From: Calditrichota bacterium
Lineage (GTDB): Bacteria; CLD3
DNA length: 64,000 bases
Assembly (NCBI GenBank): GCA_008501735.1
Contig: QQUF01000040.1
Location: forward strand, 134,431-198,430
Direction: 5' to 3'
Below the pieces are notes generated by a model. The model made no database searches. It was not told the DNA's origin and worked only from the letters and a program-made list of their open reading frames with translations. Position numbers and translations under genes: made by a program. This document shows, in pieces, positions 54,585-58,173 of this stretch. Each line of letters opens with the position of its first letter. Position 1 is the stretch's first letter.

Positions 54585-55355
54585 ATGCAAGAAACACAAG
54601 TTGAAAAATTAAATCAAGACATCAAATCTTTACAAGAACAACTTGAAAAGGCAGAACAAAAAATTGCTACAACAGAAAAGAATTTTGAAAAACTTCGTGA
54701 AAAATTTGACTTAGTTTTTAAAAATACAATTGATATTTTTATGTTAGTTAGTGCGGTTACAGGAAAAATTTTTGATGTTAGTAGTTCTGTAAAGGAACAT
54801 TTGGGGTATGAATCTGATGAATTAATAGGTAAAAAATTTGTTGAACTTTTTCCTCCTGAAGCAGAGGCACAAGGTGAGGTGATATTCGATAAAATAAGAA
54901 TTTTCGATGGTGTTTTTGCTGAAGAAACTTTTTACAAAAATGATGGTTCTATTTGTTTTATGGATTTATCTGCTTTTATGGGAGAAATGGCTGGGACTAA
55001 GGTAATTTTTGCAACTTTAAGAGACGTTTCGGAAAGAAAGAAGAGAATTGAAGAAGTTGAAAAAGTTAAAAAAATGGAAGGTGCCTTAGCTATGTCAGGA
55101 GCTGTTAGTCACGAATTAAACCAACCTTTACAAATAATCATAGGCTTTTCAGACTTAATAATTAAGGATAAAATAGACAAAGAAAAACTTGATGTTTATC
55201 TAAGTAAAATTAAAATTCAGTCGAAAAGAATGTCTAAAATAATTGGCAAACTCACAAATATTACAGAATATAAAACTTTAAAATATATTGATTCATTTGA
55301 AATTATGGATATAAATGGTACAGAAGAAGAAACTGAGAATCAAAATCTAACCTAA
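54585..55355 (+). CDS. PAS-HisKA protein lacking the kinase ATPase domain
   Basis: A soluble 256-residue protein. Residues 1-45 form a coiled coil, 50-155 a PAS domain (FKNTIDIFMLVSAVTGKIFD, LGYESDELIGKKFVELFP, TLRDVSERKK), and 165-230 a HisKA dimerisation domain with SHELNQPLQIIIGFSDL, where the phospho-His is present. The frame stops at 256 and no HATPase_c N, G1 or G2 box follows. It cannot autophosphorylate alone. It may accept phosphate or act as a dimer partner or sensor. It is 19 bp upstream of the fusion protease, with AGGAGG-type spacing, so the two are cotranscribed. Confidence 0.82.
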   Translation: MQETQVEKLNQDIKSLQEQLEKAEQKIATTEKNFEKLREKFDLVFKNTIDIFMLVSAVTGKIFDVSSSVKEHLGYESDELIGKKFVELFPPEAEAQGEVIFDKIRIFDGVFAEETFYKNDGSICFMDLSAFMGEMAGTKVIFATLRDVSERKKRIEEVEKVKKMEGALAMSGAVSHELNQPLQIIIGFSDLIIKDKIDKEKLDVYLSKIKIQSKRMSKIIGKLTNITEYKTLKYIDSFEIMDINGTEEETENQNLT

Positions 55356-55374: not shown

Positions 55375-58173
55375 ATGACTTCCAAAGAATCAAAATCATT
55401 TGTTCAATCCACAATAGAATACTTTTGGGACGTGAACGACCTTGAGAAACGAACTCACCAATTACGTAAAAAAATCAAAAACATTTTTGAACACGAAAGT
55501 CTTAACTACGAAAGCCTAAGGGATTTAGCAGTTTTAATGATTTTCTACGGAACTCCACTTGACATTAGTGAAATTGTTGGAATGAAAGTCAGCAATTTAG
55601 AAAAAGTTGAAATGGGAAGATTTAAGCTAAACCTTAAATCAGATGATGGTAGAAAGGAAAGGACTTTTGTGTTATCTACAGAAGTTTCAAATGCAATCGA
55701 GAAAATGATTCAAGTTGCTGAAATTCCCGAATATGCTCATCTTTTTGTAAACCAAAACGAAAATCCGCTTTCGCACCCCGAACTTTTCAGAATTGTCCAA
55801 AATTATTCGAATGAAAAACTGCTTCGTCAAGTTGGTGCAGATTCGCGTTTGACTGTTCGTGACCAATATATGGTTTTACCAACTCCTGCAAGGCTTCAAG
55901 CAAACCCGAATTACTCTGGCAAAGATGTTACAATTGCATTTTTAGATTCAGGGTTTTATCCACACCCAGATTTAGTTCAGCCGACAAACCGAATTTTGAA
56001 ATACATTGATTTGACAGGAAGAAACGTTCCTTTAGAAGAACCAAATCTTGATGCTTGGCACGGAACGATGACAACTGTTTGTTGTGCTGGAAACGGCTAT
56101 TCTTCAAATGGACTTTACAGTGGAATTGCCAAAAATGCGAATCTCGTTTTACTCGCAGTCGGTGAAGATGGCGGAATTGACAGAGACAATATTTTAAAAG
56201 GAATTCGTTGGGTAATTTCAAATCGTGAAAAATATAACATTAAGGTTTTAAACATTTCTTTAGGAAGTGGACTTGAAATTTCCTTCAGAAGCAGTCCGAT
56301 TGATGAAGCCGCAGAACTTGCGATTCAAGCTGGAATTGTTGTCGTTGCAGCTGCTGGAAATGACCCGTTTAGACCGAGTGTTCCTCCTGCAAATTCGCCA
56401 AATGTAATTACTGTTGGTGGTTTCAATGACAAAAATGTTCCTTTTGAAACAAATTACTCGGCTTACCATTCGCAGTTTGGAAAAACAATTGACGGCTTGA
56501 CTAAACCGGAAATTACTGCTCCTGGAACTTTAATCGCTGCTCCGATTCTACCCAAAACTCCACTCTTTGACAAAGCAAGAGTTCTGTTTTATTTGAAGTC
56601 AATTCCAGATTCTGACTTAAAGCAAGAAATTAAAAAGCTGACTAAAGTTCTTGAACTTGAAAAAGAAGAGATTCCAAAAATACCTCAAGAATTAAGGAAA
56701 TTAATAGACTCACTAATTCAAAGAAACAAACTAATTTCTCCAACTTTTCAGCACGTTGACGGAACTTCTTTTGGAGCTCCTGTTGTTTGTTCGGTTGTTG
56801 CTCAAATGGTTGAAGCGAACCCAAATTTGCCACCTGATTTGATTCGTGAAGTTTTGATTAGCACAGCAGTTTCTATCCCTCACATTCCACGAGAACGTCA
56901 AGGTTACGGAACAATTAATGCGATGGAAGCAGTTGAATCGGTTGAAAGAGATGAATTTTTGCACTTTGTTACCCAAAAAGATTTCCCAAAAGTAGAAGGA
57001 AACCAAGTTACTTTTCATTTTGACGGTGGTGAAGATTGGGAAAAAGTTTCAGTTGCAGGAGATTTTAATAAATGGGACTCTAAAGCTAATCCACTCACTA
57101 AAATTAATGGAAATTGGGAAGCAAAAGTTGAAGTTAAGTTTCCTGGTCAGTACCGTTATAAATTTGTTCTTAACAATCATTTTTGGATTGAAGACCAGAA
57201 AAATAATGATGCCGAACCCGATTCTTTTGGTGGAATGAATTCAGTTTTTGAAATAAATGAATACTCTTACTCCGAAGAGTCTTTTAATGAAATTTTCAAA
57301 ATTTTGCACGTTGATAAAAACGAAAATTTGCGTGAAAATGCTCTCAGTGCTTTGGATTTTAATTTTCGTTGGCAATCCTCTGCGAGAAGTTCTCAAGTTT
57401 TCAATTACTTCCAAAAATGTATGGAAAATGTTTTAGCAAAACTTGATTCTGAACCACCCAAAAAAGGCTTAGAAATTATTCAACTTTATAACTGTGGAAC
57501 AATTCTTAGAACTAAAGATTTTTGCATTGGAATTGACATTGTTACAACTCGTCACGTTTGGGGAGTGAACTGGAAAATTTCTGAAAAAATTGCATCAAAA
57601 TTGACTGACAAATTAGATTTACTTCTTGTTACTCAAAGACTTCCTGACCATTTAGACATCGACATTATTCACCAAATGCTTCGAAGAGACAAAGATGTTG
57701 TTGTTCCACAAGAAGACAAAGATTTGATTTCAAGCGAATGCCAAGGGATAATGCCTTCAGGAAATCTTAATTTCAAATTTGGGAAAACAAATCTAAAGAT
57801 TAACGCCTCAAGAGCTTTGCACAGTTTTGACGGAGGTCGCAAAATCACGCAAAGAAATTATGAGTTGAAGTTTAACCGCAAAAAAATACTTTTTCTTGCC
57901 GACCACGATTACACAAAGTTCTTGGACTCCGGTGGAAAAGTTGATATTTTATTTGCTAAAATTGGTGAGCTAAATCTTGATTTTACACCGATTGAAGCAA
58001 GGGAAATTTTACTTAAAAAAGTTCAACCAAAACTTTTAATTCCAACTCACATTGCCGAACTTGGTCATCCTGTTGAATCTGGTCAAGGAAGTTACGACAA
58101 AGTTGCTGACAGTCTTAGAGGGTGTGAAATTAATTATAAAATGTTAAGTTGGAGTGAAAGTTTATTCATTTAA
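55375..58173 (+). CDS. Multidomain cytoplasmic subtilase: recombinase-like + S8 peptidase + CBM48/AMPK-type + metallo-beta-lactamase-like
   Basis: A 932-residue protein without a signal peptide. Residues about 40-150 look like the first half of a tyrosine-recombinase catalytic domain (RDLAVLMIFYGTPLDISEIVG), but the catalytic Arg position is Asp63 and no H-x-x-R or Tyr follows. Residues 180-510 are a subtilisin domain with Asp191 (LDSGFYPHPD), His229 (WHGTMT) and Ser465 (GTSFGAP) intact. Residues about 545-630 are a CBM48/AMPK1 glycogen-binding domain (GDFNKW at 562). Residues about 690-932 are UlaG-like metallo-beta-lactamase, with the first motif degraded to TQRLPDH (753-759) while H844 and H892 remain. 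GGAGGAATT precedes the ATG. Confidence 0.85.
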   Translation: MTSKESKSFVQSTIEYFWDVNDLEKRTHQLRKKIKNIFEHESLNYESLRDLAVLMIFYGTPLDISEIVGMKVSNLEKVEMGRFKLNLKSDDGRKERTFVLSTEVSNAIEKMIQVAEIPEYAHLFVNQNENPLSHPELFRIVQNYSNEKLLRQVGADSRLTVRDQYMVLPTPARLQANPNYSGKDVTIAFLDSGFYPHPDLVQPTNRILKYIDLTGRNVPLEEPNLDAWHGTMTTVCCAGNGYSSNGLYSGIAKNANLVLLAVGEDGGIDRDNILKGIRWVISNREKYNIKVLNISLGSGLEISFRSSPIDEAAELAIQAGIVVVAAAGNDPFRPSVPPANSPNVITVGGFNDKNVPFETNYSAYHSQFGKTIDGLTKPEITAPGTLIAAPILPKTPLFDKARVLFYLKSIPDSDLKQEIKKLTKVLELEKEEIPKIPQELRKLIDSLIQRNKLISPTFQHVDGTSFGAPVVCSVVAQMVEANPNLPPDLIREVLISTAVSIPHIPRERQGYGTINAMEAVESVERDEFLHFVTQKDFPKVEGNQVTFHFDGGEDWEKVSVAGDFNKWDSKANPLTKINGNWEAKVEVKFPGQYRYKFVLNNHFWIEDQKNNDAEPDSFGGMNSVFEINEYSYSEESFNEIFKILHVDKNENLRENALSALDFNFRWQSSARSSQVFNYFQKCMENVLAKLDSEPPKKGLEIIQLYNCGTILRTKDFCIGIDIVTTRHVWGVNWKISEKIASKLTDKLDLLLVTQRLPDHLDIDIIHQMLRRDKDVVVPQEDKDLISSECQGIMPSGNLNFKFGKTNLKINASRALHSFDGGRKITQRNYELKFNRKKILFLADHDYTKFLDSGGKVDILFAKIGELNLDFTPIEAREILLKKVQPKLLIPTHIAELGHPVESGQGSYDKVADSLRGCEINYKMLSWSESLFI

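Follow-up and report, generated by a model that had tools for sequence, protein, structure and literature searches.

A subtilase fused in one reading frame to half a recombinase domain, a CBM48 and a metallo-beta-lactamase fold: a candidate glycogen-docked bacterial protease

Results

Gene structure and domain composition

The stretch of DNA analysed here (64,000 nucleotides, hereafter the window) encodes a 932-amino-acid protein of composite architecture, preceded on the same strand by a PAS-HisKA gene. The features of the locus are the following:

54585..55355, + strand: gene with PAS and HisKA domains and no ATPase domain, upstream of the protease gene with a 19-nt gap
55375..58173, + strand: whole gene (932 aa; half-recombinase, S8 protease, CBM48, helical linker, metallo-beta-lactamase or MBL)
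55471..55815, + strand: N-terminal half of a tyrosine-recombinase catalytic domain (residues 33-147; Pfam, PDB profile search, Foldseek)
55918..56910, + strand: subtilase (S8), residues 182-512 (Pfam; D191, H229, N329 and S465 present)
56542..56742, + strand: charged-residue-rich, family-typical segment (about residues 390-456; in aligned relatives)
57034..57261, + strand: CBM48 of the AMPK-beta glycogen-binding type (residues 554-629; Pfam, Foldseek, alignment)
57274..57447, + strand: helical linker (about residues 634-691), shared with free-standing CBM48-MBL proteins
57472..58170, + strand: UlaG-like MBL fold (about residues 700-932; Pfam, model, Foldseek)
57631..57651, + strand: TQRLPDH (residues 753-759), where relatives have THxHxDH or SHLHPDH

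The frame starts with ATG behind a Shine-Dalgarno-like GGAGG and contains no internal stop. All four domains lie above the Pfam curated cut-offs (the MBL when the C-terminal piece is scanned alone), and they follow one another in the order proposed by the first-pass annotation, which had described a four-domain fusion in a single frame and had pointed to the motifs GTPLDISEI, GDFNKW and TQRLPDH, all of them present. Predicted structures back the recombinase, CBM48 and MBL folds; for the recombinase and MBL, whose folds the annotation had proposed to check by structure prediction and Foldseek, both appear. The genome search for the same architecture that it also suggested found two further four-domain copies. 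One, a full-length orthologue from another genome of the window's family (G001, JADZEA010000201.1), is 60% identical; the other, from the unrelated MAG Zod_Metabat.886 (L031, JAFGSJ010000088.1), is 36% identical. Since full-length relatives exist in a second and a third genome, the frame is no assembly artefact, and an assembly chimera or a frameshift can be ruled out. Between the window and G001, identity amounts to 51% in the half-recombinase, 69% in the S8 domain, 59% in the CBM48, 53% in the linker and 52% in the MBL; every domain is conserved, and codon position 3 changes more than positions 1 or 2.

The Peptidase_S8 match (residues 182-512) has an E-value of 1.4e-36 in Pfam. The catalytic triad D191/H229/S465 is intact, as had been claimed, and conserved among relatives, as is N329, the probable oxyanion Asn judging from the sequence. 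The charged segment sits between this Asn and the catalytic Ser and is shared with the aligned relatives. Pfam finds no match to an I9-type prodomain in the 932-aa protein, and inspection reveals no signal peptide. The subtilase is indeed leaderless, but this does not make it unusual, as had been supposed: leaderless subtilases such as ISP and AprX are already known (PMC9549277, PMC6220982). Nor does the lack of a leader imply a cytoplasmic location, because PopC, which has no signal peptide, is nevertheless secreted (PMC6434023).

Residues 554-629 match the Pfam families CBM_48 and AMPK1_CBM (E-values of 2e-7 and 3e-7, respectively). When the domain is aligned with AMPK-beta2, it agrees with the latter at W, K, W and N of the glucan site. 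Its earlier description as a glycogen-type domain thus agrees with both the family score and the conserved ligand positions, binding itself being predicted. A glycogen-synthase-type protein is encoded in the genome of the window.

The head of the protein is clearly related to tyrosine recombinases. The N-terminal piece matches Phage_integrase at residues 33-147 (Pfam, E-value of 1.6e-11), and the best match in a profile search of PDB sequences is the XerC-like 4a8e (2e-11). A model of residues 1-175, built from an alignment of ten relatives, has a confident core at residues 45-145 (block pLDDT of about 79-93), and Foldseek assigns it to Cre/XerA, that is, to the N-lobe of recombinases, with a probability of 1.00. 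The Pfam match covers the family model only to about position 115-120 of 172 and ends just before HxxR. The Arg I position is occupied by D63 (YGTPLD) and is likewise not Arg in nine of the ten family members, the exception being L040 (YGTPVR). Box II HxxR, the H/W position and the nucleophilic Tyr are absent from the head in the Pfam comparison, the S8 domain coming next. The first-pass annotation was therefore right in seeing a catalytically dead head, but the domain is not merely mutated: it is half a domain, from which the part carrying HxxR, H/W and Tyr is missing.

At the other end of the protein, Lactamase_B_3 matches residues 744-892 with 26 bits (cut-off of 24) when the C-terminal piece is scanned alone and with 23.3 bits within the whole protein. 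The model of residues 536-932 (mean pLDDT of 87) comprises CBM48 and MBL, and its Foldseek matches are UlaG-type MBLs and AMPK-beta. In both genomes of the window's family, QRLPDH stands in the place of HxHxDH, the first two histidines being replaced by Q and L; among the MBLs compared, TQRLPDH is confined to this family. The other usual metal-ligand positions are kept: the Asp-His pair (DH 758-759), the third His (H816), the bridging Asp (D843) and the last His (H892), with HSFD, ADHDY and PTH as the motifs retained, so that a single-metal site is possible on the basis of these residues. The fused MBL of L031 has the intact motif THRHPDH, and separate CBM48-MBL proteins of about 400 aa, found in four sampled genomes, have intact SHLHPDH or THNHSDH. 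The tail had been called decayed, which is an overstatement: two metal positions of its first motif are lost, whereas the remaining positions are kept and related MBLs are intact.

A wider family of S8 proteases

The 932-aa protein is not a lone oddity. A genome scan combined with ORF mapping, by which its family was delimited, places it among short S8 proteases without a leader, a widespread family of which it is a more elaborate member. Most members are shorter than 600 aa and lack an evident signal peptide; many have a C-terminal CBM48 and some do not. They occur in Acidobacteriota, Chloroflexota, Sericytochromatia, Myxococcota, Bacteroidota/Chlorobi/Ignavibacteria, KSB1 and others as well as in the window's own class, and 8 of the 9 genomes of the window's phylum carry one. 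NCBIfam has no dedicated model for the family, the best match being the T7SS mycosin, far under its cut-off. A viral origin of the protease gene was rejected, a scan of viral contigs having found nothing.

What varies among members is the N-terminal slot, which is almost empty in some and in others holds a two-Cys-pair module (fused in 40 ORFs) or a half-recombinase. Seven acidobacteriotal loci (L035, L037, L038, L041, L044, L061 and L073) have short His-rich N-termini before the S8 domain (for example HNHSHAPN and HDHHHAPN). An 880-aa protein of Ardenticatena (L056, 4774-7416) joins a PfkB sugar kinase, the Cys-pair module, S8 and CBM48 in one frame.

The half-recombinase also occurs in front of S8 and CBM48 without an MBL at seven loci, six from Sericytochromatia or related Cyanobacteriota and one from Myxococcota; at one of them (L077, 5375-7229) the gene is split in two ORFs, probably by a frameshift. 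In S8 trees, the six placeable members of this kind form one supported group, and the window pair and L031 sit on long branches. The free S8 tree leaves the recombinase-S8 fusions unjoined; a single origin of the fusion (p-AU = 0.34) and a single four-domain clade (p-AU = 0.42) are neither rejected nor demonstrated.

All seven of these loci (7/7) have a small ORF of about 55-65 aa with a CPxCxREVDD-like motif upstream of the protease gene, at the following positions of their contigs:

L032, 365-637: small Cys-pair ORF
L033, 320-517: small Cys-pair ORF
L034, 5614-5808: small Cys-pair ORF
L036, 1810-2109: small Cys-pair ORF
L040, 5596-5829: small Cys-pair ORF
L043, 5273-5722: small Cys-pair ORF
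L077, 5174-5371: small Cys-pair ORF

Six of these ORFs lie 0-27 nt from the start of the protease gene; in L043, for which the start was picked by hand, the gap is 104 nt. In other phyla, the Cys-pair module fused to S8 is a homologue of the small ORF (hmmsearch E-values of 1e-8 to 4e-16), whose product is therefore probably a partner protein. Pfam gives the module only sub-threshold zinc-finger matches. Because some lineages carry the module in cis and others in trans, it may well be a physical partner of the protease or its regulator. No Cys-pair ORF is detectable at the four-domain loci, so this kind of regulation is not directly transferable to them.

Gene neighbourhood

A conserved operon for the four-domain gene was rejected, as the neighbours differ in all three genomes. 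The upstream gene encodes the PAS-HisKA protein in the window, an ABC-transporter auxiliary protein in G001 and LptF/LptG in L031, where an LpxC gene is also a neighbour. The PAS-HisKA protein is a possible operon partner of the protease, although not a conserved one, its gene being absent beside the 60% orthologue. Any carbohydrate or stress context consequently comes from relatives only. Their commonest neighbour family is aquaporin (MIP), found in 9 of the 112 proteins scanned, followed by ECF sigma factors. Several acidobacteriotal loci have genes for an ECF sigma factor, a zf-HC2 anti-sigma-like protein, S8-CBM48 and aquaporin in succession; the first three are found at L038, L048, L054, L059, L061 and L083, with the aquaporin gene where the contig reaches. 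Near the Cys-pair-S8-CBM48 protease of two loci from Ignavibacteria and Chlorobi (L049, 1902-4772, and L051, 1906-4871), genes for glucokinase, 6-phosphogluconolactonase and OpcA lie on the opposite strand, those of L051 being assigned by sequence similarity only. Such neighbours fit carbohydrate or stress signalling.

Discussion

Within a widespread and apparently unnamed family of proteases that are not exported, the four-domain protein is a rare elaboration. Several scenarios may explain its composition. The one that fits best, to which we would give a probability of roughly 0.4, is a regulated cytoplasmic protease anchored to alpha-glucan, with non-catalytic modules that gate proteolysis or select the substrate. 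It is preferred because the protease is intact, the CBM positions are AMPK-like, the N-terminal slot swaps and the neighbours of the relatives are of a suitable kind. A non-exported subtilisin-type protease would be held on a glycogen-like polymer by its CBM48, which would bring it onto storage polysaccharide. Gating of the protease or choice of its substrate would fall to the N-terminal slot, whether occupied by the Cys-pair module (fused, or encoded just ahead of the gene), by the half-recombinase or by both. The MBL-like tail, presumably derived from CBM48-MBL proteins, could act as a sensor, bind proteins or be a weak enzyme with a single metal. The half-recombinase and the MBL may be recognition parts of the fusion, as first proposed. 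A change in carbon or stress state would lead to limited cleavage of a regulator or of a polymer-bound protein.

A more specific version extends to the family as a whole: glycogen-docked cytoplasmic subtilases with swappable N-terminal modules, in which the half-recombinase would have been recruited once as a non-catalytic regulatory part with a small Cys-pair partner in trans, and to which the four-domain form would have added a single-metal or ligand-sensing MBL tail that reads carbohydrate state. Taken with all its parts, this version is speculative and rather unlikely.

The protease could alternatively be an arm of stress signalling that cleaves an anti-sigma factor or another regulator, the CBM48 reporting carbohydrate status and, in the window, the PAS-HisKA protein feeding in the signal. 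The sigma, anti-sigma-like and aquaporin genes that flank S8-CBM48 in Acidobacteriota argue for it, as does the PAS-HisKA gene only 19 nt away. Yet no sigma or anti-sigma gene was seen beside the four-domain or half-recombinase members, the PAS-HisKA gene is not retained beside the orthologue and co-location is not evidence of a substrate, which leaves this scenario unlikely. Somewhat less plausible again is a passive fusion, in which the recombinase half and the MBL tail would be structural add-ons of little function and S8-CBM48 alone would matter. It would account for the faster evolution of both modules (51-52% identity against 69% in S8) and for the usual catalytic residues missing from each. 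Nevertheless, two diverged genomes have both kept the modules in frame, a third lineage shows the architecture again and the third codon position is the most changed.

The small ORF immediately upstream of the protease gene and secondary NCBIfam matches to QhpE and PatA would also be compatible with a maturation protease resembling these cytoplasmic subtilases, the Cys-pair ORF of Sericytochromatia then encoding the substrate and not a regulator. This appears improbable: the NCBIfam matches are far under the curated cut-offs, no modification enzyme was found adjoining the half-recombinase genes examined and the fusion of the module in cis in about 40 relatives looks more regulatory or structural. 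Least likely of all, and very much so, is a defence effector acting against mobile elements, in which the recombinase-derived head would sense integrases or their DNA, or serve as a decoy for them, and the protease would kill or cleave upon recognition, since the weak PADLOC matches of the S8 domain to the "subtilase" and IetS models are partial and limited to the generic S8 fold, without the full-length family match and partner gene of IetAS-type anti-phage subtilases, the only adjacent gene scanned with PADLOC (PAS-HisKA) has no match, and relatives are near-universal in the phylum, have ordinary neighbours and were absent from the one set of viral contigs scanned.

If the glucan-anchored protease is the correct reading, a protease tethered to storage polysaccharide would connect controlled proteolysis in bacteria with their carbon stores, a link that was not found described in the open-licence papers searched. 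Neither a subtilase with CBM48, a recombinase/MBL/subtilisin combination nor a glycogen-granule protease with CBM48 was found in them, and the first-pass statement that no described system has this domain order agrees with that search. The recruitment of a half-recombinase and the occurrence of the Cys-pair module as a fused or separate protein lead to testable predictions on how the protease is kept inactive in the cell.

Comparison with known systems

Each part of the protein has a known counterpart. Like the ISPs of Bacillus and Planococcus, it is an S8 protease that has neither an export signal nor an I9 prodomain. ISPs use an inhibitory LIPY/F propeptide (PMC6220982). Ahead of the catalytic domain here, VLPT (residues 167-170) resembles the [VIL][IFLV]P pattern of that strand and may be its counterpart, but the distance from the motif to the catalytic Asp is 22 residues (P169 to D191) as opposed to about 41 in the ISP numbering of PMC6220982. 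Descriptions of ISPs mention no CBM48, recombinase or MBL module. PopC of Myxococcus xanthus is another signal-peptide-less subtilisin, made up of an N-terminal part without recognizable domains and a subtilisin domain; in starvation it is controlled by a separate partner protein, PopD (PMC6434023). The head resembles the tyrosine recombinases (XerA/XerC/XerD, Cre) in both fold and sequence over the N-terminal lobe of their catalytic domain, but it lacks Arg I, box II, the catalytic Tyr and a full core-binding domain. The tail resembles UlaG-like MBLs in its fold and second-metal ligand positions and differs from them in the Q and L that replace the first two His of HxHxDH. Finally, the CBM48 has the fold and the key aromatic, Lys and Asn positions of those of AMPK-beta, GlgB and SEX4, whose role is tethering to alpha-glucan. 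In these proteins the domain accompanies a kinase regulator, a glucan enzyme or a phosphatase, whereas here its partner is a protease.
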